A stretch of DNA of 64,000 bases from an uncultured Bacteroidota bacterium (lineage in GTDB: Bacteria; Bacteroidota; Bacteroidia; Flavobacteriales; Flavobacteriaceae), in assembly GCA_902557655.1 (NCBI GenBank), contig CACEAZ010000004.1, positions 1 to 64,000 of the forward strand, in the 5' to 3' direction. This document shows, piece by piece, positions 39,192 through 47,420 of the stretch (position 1 is its first letter; each line of letters begins with the position of its first letter). The translations under genes and the position numbers were made by a program. A model generated the notes under the pieces. It ran no database searches and was not told the origin of the DNA. It saw nothing but the letters and a program-made list of their open reading frames with translations.

Positions 39192-39617
39192 TTGACAACA
39201 AAAACTAACATAATATCTCTAATTCTACTTCTTTCATTTTTATCAGGATTTAGTCAAAAAGGAGAAGTTCAAATAAATAAAAGTGAAAAACTTGAAAAAA
39301 TAATATTTTTAAAAAAAGAGTTGAATAAAAAGATACAAAACTTAAAAATTCAAATTTATAGTGGCAATAGAGATCAAGCAGAAATAATTAAAGAAGAATA
39401 TGTAAAATTGTTTGATGACTCGACTGCAACGTTGATTTACGAAACTCCAAATTACAAAGTATGGATTGGTAATTTTTTTACTCGCCTTGAAGCGGATAAA
39501 AGTCTTTTAAAAATTAGAAAAAAATATAAAAGTGCTTTTATATTTAGACCAGAATATTATGAAATGGAGTTTGAAGAAGAAAGCAAAGATGAAGAAACAG
39601 ATGAAGAAATTAATTAG
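39192..39617 (+). CDS. SPOR-domain protein (secreted)
   Basis: The 141-residue protein opens with a hydrophobic signal sequence ([17 protein letters not shown]). A Lys-rich helix follows, then a SPOR domain at about 85-125 ([26 protein letters not shown]), ending in an acidic tail. SPOR domains bind denuded peptidoglycan. The start is TTG at 39192; no in-frame ATG exists until near the end, and this TTG is what makes a full signal peptide. Its end overlaps the convergent infB by four bases. Confidence 0.75.
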
Positions 39618-42187
39618 ATTTTCTTTTTTATAGCAACATTAATATATCCTTCAATCTCATCTCCAACTTTAATGTCATTGTAATCTTTAATTTGGAGACC
39701 ACAATCATAACCCTTGGTTACTTCTTTTGCATCATCTTTAAATCTTTTTAATGATGATAAAACACCAGTATAAATCACAACACCTTCTCTAATTAATCTA
39801 ATTTCTGAATTTCTAACAATTTTCCCTTTTGTTACCATACATCCGGCAATGGTCCCAATTTTTGAAATTTTAAATGTTTCTCTAACTTCACAGAGACCTG
39901 TAATCTCCTCTTTGAAGTCTGGTGACAACATGCCTTCCATTGCATCTTTAACGTCATTAATTGCTGCATAAATTATCGAATATGTTCTAATATCAATTTG
40001 TTCCTTGTCGGCAATTTGTCTTGCGTTGCCCATCGGCCTAACATTAAAACCAACGACAATAGCATCAGATGCTGATGCTAATAAAACATCACTTTCGGTA
40101 ATTGCACCAACAGCCTTGTGTATAATATTTACCTGGATTTCTTCGGTTGAAAGTTTTTGCAGAGAATCTGTAAGTGCTTCTACAGATCCATCAACATCCC
40201 CTTTTAGAATAATGTTAAGTTCTTTAAATTCTCCCAATGCAATTCTTCTTCCAATTTCATCTAACGTAATATGTTTTTGGGTTCTTACCGATTGTTCTCT
40301 TTGTAATTGATTTCTCTTATTCGCAATTTGTTTTGCCTCTCTTTCGTCAGAATAAACAGAAAACTTATCTCCTGCCTGAGGAGCACCATCAAGACCAAGA
40401 ATAGAAATTGGAGTTGAAGGGCCTGCCTCTTTAATTTCATTGCCTCTTTCATCATGCATAGCTTTAACCTTACCACTTGTCTTTCCAGCCAAAACAAAAT
40501 CTCCAACTTTTAAAGTTCCTGCCTGTACAAGAATGGTAGAAACATAACCCCTACCCTTATCTAAAAATGCCTCAACTACACTACCTACAGCATCCTTATT
40601 AGGATTTGCTTTTAATTCTAAAATTTCAGCTTCTAACAGAACTTTTTCTAAGAGTTCATTGACACCATCCCCCTTTAACGCAGAAATGTCGTGGGACTGA
40701 ATTTTACCTCCCCAATCTTCTACCAATAAATTCATATTAGAAAGACTTTCTTTTATCTTATCAGGATTTGAATTGGGTTTGTCAATTTTATTTATTGCAA
40801 ATACAATTGGAACAGATGCAGCTTGAGCATGAGAAATAGCCTCTTTTGTTTGAGGCATTATATCATCATCTGCCGCAATCACAATAATAACTAAATCAGT
40901 TACCTGCGCACCTCTTGCCCTCATTGCTGTAAATGCTTCGTGACCAGGTGTATCTAAAAAAGTAATTTTTTGACCGTCTTGAAGTTCAACAGCATAAGCT
41001 CCTATATGCTGTGTGATTCCTCCCGATTCACCAGCAATTACATTTTCTTTTCTTATGTAATCTAATAGGGATGTTTTTCCATGATCAACATGTCCCATTA
41101 CAGTGACTATTGGAGGTCTCGGCATTAAATCTTCAGGAGATTCCTCTATTTCTTCAGCTTCTTCCTCAATTTCAGCAGTTACAAATTCAACTTTATAACC
41201 AAATTCTTCTGCCACAATCGAGAGAGTTTCAGCATCTAATCTTTGATTTAAGGTCACCATCATTCCTAAGGTCATACATGCAGAAATAATTTCGGTTGTA
41301 GAAACATCCATCATGGTTGCAATTTCATTAGCTGTTACAAACTCCGTAACCTTTAAAATTTTACTTTCCTGTTCTTGGGCTGCTATCTCCTCTTCAGACT
41401 TTTGCTTATGTTGATCTCTTTTATCTTTTCTATATTTTGCAGCTTTTCCTTTTGATGATTTTCCCTGGAGCTTTTCAAGGGTTTCTTTAATTTGTTTTTG
41501 AACTTCCTCTTCGCTAGGTTCTTCTTTAACAACCCTGTTTGGCCTACCTTTTTGTTTAAATTTTGTGTTTCCAAAATTATTTTGAGGGGCATTGCCTTTA
41601 TTGGAAACAATTCTTTTCCTTTTCTTTTTTGATTTTGCTTCAGAAGAAACAGTTTCTGGTTTTTTAAATTGATTAAGATCTATTTTTTCACCAGTGGATT
41701 TTAATCCAGTTAATTTTTTATAATTATCTTTTTTGACAGAATCATCACCTGATTCGTCGGGGCTTGAAGGTGATTGTTCTTTTATTTCATTTGTAGGCTC
41801 TTTTTGAGGTTTATAATCAACTTTTTCAGCTTTAATTTCTTTTTTAGTCTCAAGATCTATTTTGCCAACTTTTTTAAATTGAAAAACCTTAGAAGAAGCT
41901 TTAATAACTTCGTTTGAGTTTGAAATAACTGAATTTTGTTCTTTTTCCTGTTTTTCCCTGATCTCTTCCTTTTCTTTATTTTTTGCCTCAACTGCTTCTT
42001 TAGAAGCTAGCTTTTTGTCTGCATCAATTTGAAACTCATCACACAATAAGTTATATAGATCTGTAGAGATTTTAGTTGTAGGTCTTTTCTCAATAACGTG
42101 ACCCTTGGACTCTAAAAACTCCGCGACTCTGTCAATTGAAATATTTAATTCCCTTAAAACTTTATTTAACCTTATTGTATCTGCCAT
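39614..42187 (-). CDS. infB: Translation initiation factor IF-2
   Basis: The 857-residue GTPase starts with an IF2-N-like helix region ([29 protein letters not shown]). A long Lys/Glu-rich low-complexity linker (about 60-280) precedes a second N-domain (about 275-330) and the G domain. G1 is [12 protein letters not shown]3 DTPGHEAF, G4 NKID. Domains II-IV follow to the end. It positions fMet-tRNA on the 30S subunit. It is 14 bases after nusA in the standard rimP-nusA-infB order. Confidence 0.97.
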
Positions 42188-42201: not shown

Positions 42202-43434
42202 TTAATCTTCAAATTCTTCTTTTAATATTTTAAGAACATCATTAATCGTTTCTTCCTCAAGATCGGTTCTCTTAACCAAGTCTGCTGCATCCTGTTCAAG
42301 AACACTTTTTGCTGTATCAAGACCTGCTTTTGCAAGTTCATCAATAATCCACGAATCTATTTCATCAGAGAATTCTGTTAATTCAACGTCTTCTTCAGCT
42401 CCCTCTCTAAACACATCAATTTCGTAACCTGTCAATTGTCCAGCAAGTCTTATATTATGACCTCCCCTACCAATTGCTTTACTAACTTCCTCGGGATTTA
42501 AAATCACTTCAACTCTATTATTGTCTTCATCAATTTTCATTGAATTCACTCTTGCCGGATTAAGTGCTCTGGTTATAAATAATTGAAGGTTGTTAGTATA
42601 ATTAATAACATCGATGTTTTCATTTCCAAGCTCCCTAACAATACCATGAATTCTTGATCCTTTCATTCCGACACAAGCTCCAACGGGATCAATTCGGTCA
42701 TCATAAGAGTCAACAGCAACTTTTGCTTTTTCTCCAGGTATTCTTACAACTTTTTTTATTGAAATTAGTCCATCAAAAACTTCAGGAATTTCCTGTTCGA
42801 ACAATTTTTCTAAAAATATCGGAGAGGTTCTGGAAAGTATTATCGATGGTTTTGTTCCTATTAATTCAACACTTTCGATTACTCCTCTAATATTATCGCC
42901 TTTTCTAAAAAAATCAGAGGGTATCTGTTTGTCTTTAGGCATAACGATTTCATTGCCTTCATCATCAAGTAAAATAATTGCCTTATGTCTAATGTGATGT
43001 ACTTCAGCGGTATATATTTCACCTTCTAATTCTTTAAACTTCTTATAAACATTTGTGTTATCATGCTCATGTAATTTTGCAGTTAAATTTTGTCTTAGAG
43101 CTAAAATAGATCTTCTTCCAAGATCAACTAACTTAACTTCTTCTGAAACATCCTCGCCAACTTCAAAATCTGGTTCAATCTTTCTTGCTTCAGTAAGGGC
43201 AATTTCTATATTATCATCTTCAACATTGTCATCCTCGACAACAATTCTATTTCTCCATATTTCTAAATCTCCCTTATCAGGATTAATAATTACATCAAAA
43301 TTTTCATCATCTCCATATTTTCTCCTTAGAGTTGATCTAAAAACTTCCTCAAGAATCGCCATTAGTGTGACTCTGTCAATTAATTTATCATCTTTAAATT
43401 CTGAAAACGATTCAATTAGTGTTAGATTATCCAT
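42202..43434 (-). CDS. nusA: Transcription termination/antitermination factor NusA
   Basis: The 410-residue protein has the N-terminal RNA-polymerase-binding domain (about 1-125), an S1 domain (about 130-200), and two KH domains ([22 protein letters not shown] and [22 protein letters not shown]). The C-terminus is acidic and lacks the repeat domains of E. coli NusA. NusA promotes pausing and intrinsic termination. A hairpin before rimP raises the possibility of autoregulation. It lies three bases after rimP. Confidence 0.97.
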
Positions 43435-43437
43435 ATT

Positions 43438-43899
43438 CTAAAATTTTACTTTAACTTTTGCTTCTTTAATTTTTTTGAAATCAATATCAATTGATTTTTC
43501 TACAGTTACTTTACCCTTACCTATCGGTTTTGGTTGTCTTTCTTTCCATACAAGATTAATCGACTTATCGTCAGTACCAGTAAGTCTTCCTTCATAAAAT
43601 TCATTATCTGTTTTAACCGATAAAATTCTTCCACAATGCTTAGAATATTGTCTGGCAATAAGTAAAGGAGAAGTGGCTCCACAGGATGCTACTTCCAAAG
43701 AAAAATCTAATTCTTCTCTGTCAAAATTTCCTTCAATTGCTCGACTTATAAACATGCAATCTTCAACTTTAACTCCATTATCTCCATCTATTATAACCTT
43801 TATTTCGTTGCTTTCCGAAACGGAGAAATCAATAAGAAAAAGATCACTTCTTTGATCAAAACAGTCAATTAACAATAATTCTATTTTTTCCTTCAACAT
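43438..43899 (-). CDS. rimP: Ribosome maturation factor RimP
   Basis: The 153-residue protein has the RimP N-terminal domain (SNEIKVIIDGDNGVKVEDCMFISRAIEG, then LEVASCGATSPLL, near the usual EVSSPG position) and the Sm-like C-terminal domain. It assists 30S maturation. It begins with ATG at 43899, just ten bases after a terminator-like hairpin. It heads the rimP-nusA-infB operon. Confidence 0.93.
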   Translation of the reverse strand: MLKEKIELLLIDCFDQRSDLFLIDFSVSESNEIKVIIDGDNGVKVEDCMFISRAIEGNFDREELDFSLEVASCGATSPLLIARQYSKHCGRILSVKTDNEFYEGRLTGTDDKSINLVWKERQPKPIGKGKVTVEKSIDIDFKKIKEAKVKVKF

Positions 43900-43909
43900 G
43901 TTCTATAAA

Positions 43910-43934
43910 AAGAGGGGACTCTTAGTCCCCTCTT
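43910..43934 (-). terminator. Strong intrinsic-terminator hairpin in front of rimP
   Basis: AAGAGGGGACT and AGTCCCCTCTT form a perfect 11-pair, GC-rich stem with a three-base loop. Read on the minus strand, a TTTTT tract follows, ending about ten bases before the rimP ATG. It ends the tRNA-Gln transcript and, if the box at 43960 is real, also lies in the rimP leader. On the plus strand an AATTTTTT run follows too, but no plus-strand gene leads into it. Confidence 0.85.
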
Positions 43935-43959
43935 AATTTTTTAATATTAATCAGTGATG

Positions 43960-43967
43960 CAAATATA
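43960..43967 (-). promoter_or_regulatory. Candidate -7 box for rimP-nusA-infB
   Basis: TATATTTG on the minus strand fits TAnnTTTG and lies between the tRNA-Gln gene and the terminator hairpin. A start near 43953 would put the hairpin in the 5' leader. No spaced TTG is visible, so it could be chance in AT-rich DNA. Confidence 0.45.
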
Positions 43968-44003
43968 CAATAAAATATTTATTGATTAGCCATTTGCATT
44001 TAG

Positions 44004-44076
44004 TTGGCCTACTAGGGCTCGAACCTAGACTCTTCTGGACCAAAACCAGACGTGTTACCAGTTACACCATAGGCCA
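44004..44076 (-). tRNA. tRNA-Gln (anticodon UUG)
   Basis: Read on the minus strand, the gene folds fully: acceptor TGGCCTA/TAGGCCA, D arm GTGT/ACAC, anticodon arm TCTGG-TTTTGGT-CCAGA, variable loop AGAGT, and T arm CTAGG-TTCGAGC-CCTAG. The loop gives anticodon TTG, so it reads CAA and by wobble CAG. Discriminator base is A at 44004; CCA is not encoded. It is a single-gene unit with a good promoter (44086-44114) and a terminator (43910-43934). Confidence 0.97.
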
Positions 44077-44085
44077 TTGAGGATG

Positions 44086-44114
44086 CAAATTTAAAATAAT
44101 TTTTATATCAGCAA
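44086..44114 (-). promoter_or_regulatory. Promoter of tRNA-Gln
   Basis: On the minus strand TTG (44112-44114) precedes TAAATTTG (44086-44093) by 18 bases, a full match to TTG-N17-23-TAnnTTTG. It sits ten bases ahead of the mature tRNA 5' end. Confidence 0.75.
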
Positions 44115-44186: not shown

Positions 44187-47100
44187 ATGAAATTAGACGA
44201 TTTTAAAAAACTTAATTTACTTCTTGGATGGATATGTTTTTTAGTATCTTTTTGTGTCTATTTCTCCACTGCTGAGCCAACGGTTAGTTTCTGGGATACA
44301 GGGGAATATATTACTACATCTTCAAAACTACAAGTAGGTCATCCTCCTGGGGCCCCGCTATATCAAATGCTTGGAGCAATATTCTCTGTTTTTGCAATTG
44401 ATAAAGAGAATATTGGTTTTACGATGAATTTAATGAGTGGATTTAGTAGTGCATTGACAATAGCTTTTATGTACTGGAGTATTGTTTTAATTCTCTTAAA
44501 AATAATCAGTACTGATAAATTTACATTAAACAGGCAACTTGCAATTTCTGGAGCAGGATTGGTCGGTGCATTGAGTTTTTCATTCACAGATAGTTTTTGG
44601 TTTAACGCTGTGGAAGCAGAGGTTTATGCCATGGCTACTTTAATAATGTCAATATTATTTTATTTAGGCTTGCGATGGGAGGCTGATATGAATAAACCTA
44701 GAGGTAATAAATGGTTGATACTTATTTGTTTTGTTATCGGATTATCGTTTGGAGTGCATTTTATGGGGCTTTTAACAATTCCTGCCATTGTTCTGATCTT
44801 TTATTTTAAAAACCAAAAAACAATTCGAAGTAGCTTAAAAATAAATTCTTTATACGGGTTCTTGTTTGCAAATATTTTAGGACTATTAATTCTTATGGGG
44901 ATTTTTAAATTGATCCTTCCATATACATTAAGGTTTTTTAGTATGATTGAATTGTTATTTGTAAATAACTTTAATTTACCTTTCAATTCTGGATCTATTG
45001 CCGCATTTATAATCATCGCTCTATCCTTCTATTATTTAATAAATTACACTGCGAAAAAAAACTTAGTAACAATCAACACGTTGGTGCTCTGTTTCTTATT
45101 TATTTTCATTGGCTTCTCGTCGTGGTTAATTCTTCCTATTAGATCAAATGCAAATGTTGTGGTCAATGAAAATAATCCATCAAACGCAAGAGAACTTTTA
45201 GCCTACTATAATCTAGAACAATACCCAAAAACATATCTCTTTTATGGCCCACTATTTACCGACCAGTATTCTGGACTAGACAAGGAGAATCCTTACAAAA
45301 ATGATAATCCAAAATATGAGAAAGATTTAGATAATAATAAATATGTTATTGTAAATGATTATGAAAATGCAATTCAAAACTACAATTCTGAGCACGCTTC
45401 AATTCTTCCAAGAATGTGGAGCTCAGAACATGCCAAAAACTATTTAAATTACACGGGATACCTCAACTTCAAAATAAAATCAAGATATCTAAACGAACCT
45501 GGAATTAAAGATTTTGTTTCTGACTTTAAAAATAAAATAAATGAAGGTGAAGTTGATTATGAGGATTTTGAAAAATTTCTAAAACAATATGGTCAATTTT
45601 TAGAAATTCAAAAACCATCATTGCTTAGTAATCTGTATTATTTATTTGACTATCAAATTGGTTATATGTATCTAAGATATTTCATGTGGAATTTTGCTGG
45701 AAGACAAGACGATATTCAAGGAAAGATGAATTTAAATGGTAATTGGCTAAGTGGGATTAATTTTATTGACGAATGGAATATAGGTGTTTCACAAAAAAAT
45801 CTTCCTGGAGATGTTTTAAACAATAAAGCAAGAAATACATATTACCTATTGCCTCTACTTTTAGGCCTTATTGGTTTGTATTTTTTATATAATTTAAATA
45901 AAGAATATTTTTGGATTCTTCTTGTATTTTTTGTTTTTACGGGGGTTGCAATACAGGTTTACACAAACGTGCGTCCATTTGAACCAAGAGAAAGAGATTA
46001 TTCATTAGTAGGCTCTTTTTATGTTTTTTCGATGGCAATAGGATTAGGAAGTTTCTACCTATCAACATTATTAGAAAAGATAAAATTAAAAAAGAGCTCC
46101 ATTTTAACCACCTTGACGTGCTTACTAATTGTACCTGTTAACCTTGCTGTGAATAATTGGGATGATCACGACAGGAGCGGTAGGTATACCGCTTATTCAA
46201 TGGCTGTAAATTATTTGAATTCCTGTGATAAAAATGCGATTTTATTTACAATCGGTGACAACGATACTTTTCCGCTTTGGTATGCACAAGAAATCGAAGG
46301 AATCAGAACAGATGTTAGAATTGTTAACACAAGCTTGTTAAGTACGGACTGGTATATTGATCAAATGAAAAGACAGGCATATGAAAGTGAACCTATTCCG
46401 TCAAGTTTAACCCACGATAAATACAGGCATGGTACAAGAGATTATATAATAAAAGAAGCAATAACCAACGACACAATAGATGTTGATGTTTTTCTGGATT
46501 TTATTACACAAGATGAAAAAGAATACAAATACGGTGAAATCCTTAAAAGACAAGGTTACGATACTTCTGGACTCAGAAGTCAAGATTTAAATGCCAATTT
46601 TCTCCCTACTGAAAATATAAAAATTCCAGTGAATATCGAAAATGTATTAAAATATAATATTGTAAATAAAGACAAATCTGACTTGATAGAAAATGAAATA
46701 ATTATTAATATAAAATCTCAAGCACTATATAAAAACAGACTGATTATGTTAGATATAATTGCGCAAAATGAATGGAGGCGACCTATTTATTTTACTGGTG
46801 GAGCATTTGGAGATGAAGATTATATTTGGATGAAAGATTATTTACAATTAGATGGAATGTGTTATAAACTGATTCCTATAAAAACCGAAGTTGATGAATC
46901 TAATCCATATGAAATGGGTATGGTAGATTCACAAAAAATGCTATCAATAGTTAAAAATTGGGAATGGGGTTCTAAGGATTCAAATGAGATTTATTTAGAT
47001 GTAGAGTCTAGAAAAAATAGCATTACCTATAGAGGCAATATGTCTAGATTAATAGATCAATTAATTTTAGAAAATAAAATAGATGAAGCAGAAAATATTT

Positions 47101-47420
47101 TGGACATATGTATGGAGAAAATGCCGGTAAATGAATATGGATATTACACTCTTTTAGAACCGTTTTTGAATGCTTACTATTTGATTAACAAACCTAAAAA
47201 AGCAAGAAAAATATTTGACGATATCGCAGTAAAATATCAAGAAAGTTTATTCTATTTTAGCACCGTTTCAAATTCTAATAAAAATAGATACGCAGAAGAT
47301 ATCTACATAGATATTGAAAGATACAGGTCATTAGTAGATGTTATTTTGAATCACGAAGAAGGTGAATATTTAGAAACAAGAATGAAAGAATTCAACGATT
47401 ATTTAGATTTATTCCTTTAA
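44187..47420 (+). CDS. DUF2723 polytopic membrane protein, putative glycosyltransferase
   Basis: The 1077-residue protein has about 12 helices in its first 650 residues and a soluble C-terminal part. DUF2723 marks are clear: PTVSFWDTGEYITTSSKLQVGHPPGAP near the start (acidic pair as in GT-C enzymes), FNAVEAEVYAMATL, and NVRPFEPRERDYSLVGSF. IGDNDTFPLWYAQEIEGIRTDVRIVN lies in the soluble part, with TPR-like helices near the end (about 955-1060). The human DUF2723 protein TMEM260 is an O-mannosyltransferase, and Bacteroidota add O-glycans to exported proteins; a similar role here is inference. It overlaps the convergent thioredoxin-like gene by four bases. Confidence 0.85.
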   Translation: MKLDDFKKLNLLLGWICFLVSFCVYFSTAEPTVSFWDTGEYITTSSKLQVGHPPGAPLYQMLGAIFSVFAIDKENIGFTMNLMSGFSSALTIAFMYWSIVLILLKIISTDKFTLNRQLAISGAGLVGALSFSFTDSFWFNAVEAEVYAMATLIMSILFYLGLRWEADMNKPRGNKWLILICFVIGLSFGVHFMGLLTIPAIVLIFYFKNQKTIRSSLKINSLYGFLFANILGLLILMGIFKLILPYTLRFFSMIELLFVNNFNLPFNSGSIAAFIIIALSFYYLINYTAKKNLVTINTLVLCFLFIFIGFSSWLILPIRSNANVVVNENNPSNARELLAYYNLEQYPKTYLFYGPLFTDQYSGLDKENPYKNDNPKYEKDLDNNKYVIVNDYENAIQNYNSEHASILPRMWSSEHAKNYLNYTGYLNFKIKSRYLNEPGIKDFVSDFKNKINEGEVDYEDFEKFLKQYGQFLEIQKPSLLSNLYYLFDYQIGYMYLRYFMWNFAGRQDDIQGKMNLNGNWLSGINFIDEWNIGVSQKNLPGDVLNNKARNTYYLLPLLLGLIGLYFLYNLNKEYFWILLVFFVFTGVAIQVYTNVRPFEPRERDYSLVGSFYVFSMAIGLGSFYLSTLLEKIKLKKSSILTTLTCLLIVPVNLAVNNWDDHDRSGRYTAYSMAVNYLNSCDKNAILFTIGDNDTFPLWYAQEIEGIRTDVRIVNTSLLSTDWYIDQMKRQAYESEPIPSSLTHDKYRHGTRDYIIKEAITNDTIDVDVFLDFITQDEKEYKYGEILKRQGYDTSGLRSQDLNANFLPTENIKIPVNIENVLKYNIVNKDKSDLIENEIIINIKSQALYKNRLIMLDIIAQNEWRRPIYFTGGAFGDEDYIWMKDYLQLDGMCYKLIPIKTEVDESNPYEMGMVDSQKMLSIVKNWEWGSKDSNEIYLDVESRKNSITYRGNMSRLIDQLILENKIDEAENILDICMEKMPVNEYGYYTLLEPFLNAYYLINKPKKARKIFDDIAVKYQESLFYFSTVSNSNKNRYAEDIYIDIERYRSLVDVILNHEEGEYLETRMKEFNDYLDLFL

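Follow-up and report, generated by a model that had tools for sequence, protein, structure and literature searches.

A conserved terminator hairpin in the rimP-nusA-infB leader of Bacteroidia, a probable NusA-responsive attenuator

We propose that a conserved hairpin in the short leader of the rimP-nusA-infB operon is an intrinsic-terminator attenuator through which NusA probably limits expression of its own operon. The hairpin was examined in a 64,000-nucleotide stretch (the window) of the incomplete, ~1.4 Mb genome of an uncultured Flavobacteriaceae bacterium, and in related genomes. On the minus strand of the window, a tRNA-Gln gene is followed by the promoter-like box TATATTTG, the hairpin, rimP, nusA and infB (Table 1), and the rimP-nusA-infB calls made in a preliminary description of this DNA were confirmed by RimP_N, NusA_N/KH and IF-2 domains. 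The perfect hairpin with a T tract that the description placed about ten bases before the rimP ATG is present as claimed, with 11 pairs (six of them G-C), a loop of 3 nt and TTTATAG directly after it; the gap between the stem and the ATG (43899) is 10 bases (43909-43900). The box TATATTTG does lie upstream of the hairpin and fits the Bacteroidota -7 promoter consensus, TAnnTTTG; the window locus shows no clear -33 TTG at the customary spacing from it. A further box, TAAATTTG, which was absent from the description, precedes the tRNA-Gln gene and is retained in nearly all same-genus loci. Divergent from tRNA-Gln lies a gene for a TMEM260-like protein O-mannosyl-transferase (44187-47420, plus strand), and, judging from the sequence upstream, such a neighbour apparently also occurs in genome G024 and in the rimP-less f6 genomes.

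Table 1. Features of the tRNA-Gln and rimP-nusA-infB region, in window coordinates.
Feature	Position	Strand	Basis
tRNA-Gln (anticodon TTG)	44003..44076	-	ARAGORN; Rfam RF00005, 65.3 bits
TAAATTTG, promoter-like box of the tRNA-Gln gene, Bacteroidota -7 type	44086..44093	-	Sequence; putative promoter role
TATATTTG, promoter-like box of the rimP operon, TAnnTTTG	43960..43967	-	Sequence; putative promoter role
rimP 5' leader, ~54 nt, if transcription starts ~7 nt beyond the box	43900..43953	-	Predicted from Bacteroidota promoter geometry
Leader terminator hairpin, AAGAGGGGACT-AAG-AGTCCCCTCTT	43910..43934	-	Sequence, fold, conservation with compensatory changes
U tract TTTTTATAG after the 9-pair core stem; distal part broken by A	43903..43911	-	Sequence
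rimP	43438..43899	-	ORF; PF02576 (RimP_N)
nusA	42202..43434	-	ORF; NusA_N and KH_5
infB	39614..42187	-	ORF; IF-2 domains

The window hairpin folds at -18.2 kcal/mol (z = -4.1), ranks best among 12 terminator-like sites in the 16 kb scanned, and is the single match to the stem pattern in the window, where 0.03 would be expected by chance. Across 84 Flavobacteriaceae leaders the median hairpin energy is -15.2 kcal/mol, and -8 kcal/mol is reached by 98% of the real leaders versus 0.8% of shuffled ones.

Alignment of relatives, proposed earlier as a check on the hairpin, showed that it is conserved in the family and throughout the class Bacteroidia. Every same-genus locus with upstream sequence (14/14) keeps tRNA-Gln, box and hairpin, and a hairpin precedes rimP in every Flavobacteriaceae genus examined. 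The pattern GGGGACN{2,10}GTCCCCTCTTTT has exactly one site, beside rimP, in 108 of 149 Flavobacteriaceae genomes, and its reversed control gave zero matches in the same 149 genomes. In the 31 further genomes where rimP was detected, this place is taken by variant hairpins with T tracts, including GTCCTC with a G-U pair, GAGCGGAC/GTCCGCTC, GGGGAT/ATCCCC, GGGGC/GCCCC, and bulged stems with T8-T10. Overall, the stem GAGGGGAC/GUCCCCUC (GAGGGGAC/GTCCCCTC) is near-invariant in sequence over more than 100 genera, with at most one site per genome. A TAnnTTTG box stands 26-39 nt upstream of the stem in 83 of the 84 family leaders, and the distance from stem end to start codon is mostly 10-20 nt. Seven leaders (L078, L083, L088, L094, L096, L100 and L101) have a bulged or mismatched stem (e.g., GAGGCGAC/GTCCCTC) together with T tracts of exceptional length (8-10), and in three others (L029, L087 and L080) the rimP start lies ~100 nt past the hairpin, beyond a long additional stretch of leader.

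A covariance model built from the Flavobacteriaceae leaders and run on the genomes of the order found one site each in 70 of 148 genomes, in ~10 families; all 20 model sites examined from other families of the order are upstream of rimP or nusA. Moreover, a G-rich hairpin, usually GGGGAC/GTCCCC, precedes rimP in all 30 loci sampled across the class, lying further upstream in L179 and having a weak U tract in L176. The stem pattern has at least 118 sites in named genomes, and among the sites listed 108 precede rimP by HMM, seven more resemble rimP leaders by eye (diverged, cut or matched in antisense), and the remaining three are unrelated. Matches in Clostridia, Selenomonadales and Rhodospirillaceae records were set aside, as they are not upstream of rimP. 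In the other classes of the phylum (L332-L359), rimP leaders contain terminator-like hairpins with lineage-specific stems, such as TCGCCCC/GGGGCGA or AGTGGGGATCCCCACT; outside Bacteroidia, the position of the predicted leader hairpin is thus kept while its stem sequence changes between classes. Weak matches to the leader model cluster on both strands of G206:C1:106353-107713, possibly as repeated hairpins.

Several lines of evidence indicate that selection acts on the hairpin as RNA. In 73 leaders, 97.2% of the cells in the pair count are paired and three pairs have changed on both sides (e.g., GAGCGGAC/GTCCGCTC), and the covariation score exceeds that of every shuffled and slid control, the shuffles ignoring relatedness. 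The stem for the pair counts was set by hand, because the helix returned by RNAalifold on alignment A1 was register-shifted and without covariation. TTTT follows on the rimP-sense side in 79 of 84 leaders versus 11 of 84 on the other side. Furthermore, weak stems go with longer T runs (mean 8.5 versus 5.1; Spearman 0.54, relatedness ignored), and the weak-stem leaders, as judged by eye, fall into three or more sequence groups. A perfect inverted repeat that is almost invariant and close to the transcription start could also be a DNA operator for a dimeric repressor, a reading to which we give almost no credence: the half-sites lie 4 to 7 nt apart, depending on the leader, G-U substitutions and swapped pairs spoil the symmetry or sequence of the DNA while RNA pairing is kept, and the T tract lies on the sense side after the stem. 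The pairing, spacing and T-tract data fit selection on termination rather than on a DNA operator. Proximity of the hairpin end to the start codon (10-20 nt in most genera) would likewise suit a main effect on rimP translation or mRNA stability, for instance by obstructing ribosome access or shielding the 5' end, but a few genera separate hairpin and start by ~100 nt (L029, L087), the T tract is strongly kept, and stem and T run compensate for one another, which makes such a role highly unlikely.

We also considered the proposal, raised in the preliminary description, that the hairpin merely ends the tRNA-Gln unit and that rimP is read by leakage. Within the window genus this has some appeal, since all 14 same-genus loci with upstream sequence have tRNA-Gln adjacent and no second terminator is visible between tRNA-Gln and rimP. 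Beyond the genus, the tRNA order is rarely kept: a tRNA occurs within ~400 nt upstream in only 4 of 30 sampled Flavobacteriaceae genera, whereas the hairpin is present in all 30. In addition, the tRNA is followed at once by a terminator of its own in five loci (L020, L024, L031, L081 and L093) that nonetheless retain the rimP hairpin, and a promoter-like box lies between tRNA and hairpin. As a general account, termination of the tRNA unit alone is therefore very improbable. The narrower part of the proposal holds up better, as the lack of another terminator after tRNA-Gln in the window's lineage means that the hairpin probably ends the tRNA transcript too, and would there serve both the tRNA-Gln and the rimP units. 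Two loci have a different layout: in L220 (4829-4853) and L244 (4941-4965), ~20 nt separate the end of the tRNA from the GAGGGGAC hairpin and contain no TAnnTTTG box, so that rimP would be read there only via the tRNA unit, much as from the E. coli promoters ahead of metY.

Genomes that lack rimP bear directly on which gene the element serves. In 12 genomes from seven families, nusA is present and rimP is undetectable with either PF02576 or a more sensitive 19-sequence RimP profile, and all 12 have a hairpin with a U tract upstream of nusA; the family model scores a site before nusA in nine of them. G024, G256 and the f6 genomes show tRNA-Gln, box, hairpin and nusA, that is, the window order minus rimP. 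In incomplete genomes the absence of rimP could partly reflect missing data, yet the contigs that carry the hairpin continue into nusA. No such hairpin was found before nusA in the strongly reduced genomes G182 and G332, and the complete 3.8 Mb Flavobacteriaceae genome G060 gave neither a NusA_N nor a RimP_N match over the cut-off, which may or may not be a genuine absence. Retention of the hairpin before nusA in genomes without rimP points to nusA as the controlled gene, and these genomes are the strongest new evidence, favouring an element that belongs to nusA and not to rimP. The earlier suggestion that a transcript from the box would carry the terminator in its rimP leader is also supported, as box and hairpin are kept as a unit with or without the tRNA, and before nusA where rimP is missing.

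The attenuation that we propose would operate as follows. Transcription would start just beyond the TATATTTG box, ~20 nt upstream of the stem, and polymerase would meet the GAGGGGAC/GUCCCCUC hairpin and its U tract ahead of the coding region; part of the transcripts would end there and the remainder would continue into rimP-nusA-infB. Abundant NusA would stabilise the hairpin-paused complex and increase termination, while scarce NusA would let more polymerases pass, giving negative feedback on nusA. With just ~20 nt between the predicted start and the stem, the leader appears too short for a competing antiterminator structure, which we therefore rejected in favour of control by a protein bound to the polymerase or to the hairpin. 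Throttling by NusA would fit all of the evidence presented here as well as published work in other phyla. One published basis for it is the proposal of Naville and Gautheret (2010) for the rimP leader (PMC2965389). In B. subtilis, NusA is reported to stimulate an intrinsic terminator in the 5' leader of nusA and thereby to restrict how much transcription enters the gene (reviewed in PMC12288461), an arrangement that resembles ours in having an intrinsic terminator in the leader, with a NusA effect that is reported there and proposed here for Bacteroidota. In E. coli, terminators lie upstream of rimP and NusA regulates its own operon (PMC6511841), in agreement with the parallel drawn in the preliminary description to an operon behind the metY tRNA gene with terminators between. 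The E. coli metY-rimP-nusA-infB operon shares with the window locus a tRNA gene, promoter, terminators and rimP, and it differs in that the tRNA is an initiator tRNA instead of tRNA-Gln and that two terminators stand in tandem ahead of rimP; a linked tRNA, moreover, is only occasional in Bacteroidia. Distal interruption of the U tract is a described feature of NusA-dependent terminators (PMC8060035), and the window U tract, UUUUUAUA, has one, which is weakly consistent with NusA dependence.

General NusA action may not be the whole explanation, because a stem near-invariant over more than 100 genera exceeds what a generic NusA-responsive terminator needs and makes a sequence-reading factor possible. 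Naville and Gautheret regarded the conserved GGGc/gCCC stem of the rimP leader as an oddity and argued for a specific protein (PMC2965389). An attenuator run by another reader of the GGGGAC/GUCCCC stem (RimP, IF2 or some further RNA-binding protein, for instance) nevertheless seems unlikely to us: the hairpin stays with nusA after loss of rimP, which argues against RimP, variants with a changed stem persist, and other classes use different stems. Tentatively, GGGGAC/GUCCCC might be read specifically, by the RNA-binding domains of NusA or by another factor, which would make the element a dedicated switch for termination, sequence-specific and linked to nusA throughout Bacteroidia, rather than an ordinary terminator that happens to be NusA-responsive; we regard this as possible but doubtful. 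Our preferred reading thus stays with NusA as the most likely agent of attenuation.

The rimP-leader kind of element is already known. According to Naville and Gautheret (2010), it has an intrinsic terminator near the rimP start, for which they proposed an attenuator role, and their rimP-leader resembles the element described here in its G-rich 5' arm and C-rich 3' arm, conserved stem, operon and, mostly, absence of an antiterminator (PMC2965389). The same anatomy is found in the window, where a predicted terminator of hairpin and U tract stands 5' of rimP-nusA-infB and the G-rich/C-rich stem GAGGGGAC/GTCCCCTC is conserved in sequence; the signature is operon-specific, with one site per matching genome, beside rimP. 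By this anatomy and the operon-specific conserved stem, we assign the predicted element to the rimP-leader kind, outside RF01770. That Rfam family represents the gammaproteobacterial rimP leader, from which the window differs in its GAGGGGAC/GUCCCCUC stem and TAnnTTTG-type promoter; a covariance search left the window unmatched to RF01770 even at E up to 10, while the E. coli leader, as positive control, scored 102 bits. Other Rfam matches of the window at permissive thresholds were sub-threshold and to unrelated hairpin-bearing RNAs, and were discarded. The main text of PMC2965389 contains no word starting with Bacteroid or Flavobacter. A structured 5' element of rimP in F. psychrophilum was reported in 2021 as new, kept in other Flavobacteriaceae and without an Rfam match, in a main text that gives no structure, mechanism or wider distribution for it (PMC9723704), and it is very probably the same element as the window hairpin. 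Our additions to the rimP-leader kind are a Bacteroidia-wide form, its signature sequence, pair-level evidence and the attachment to nusA.

These observations offer a clean comparative case in which selection holds a terminator stem and its U tract together. The protein served by the rimP-leader attenuator has so far been unclear, and the lineages that have lost rimP are natural experiments that favour nusA. With a short, near-invariant element that each genome carries once, the question is open to a single-reporter test in a tractable Flavobacterium.
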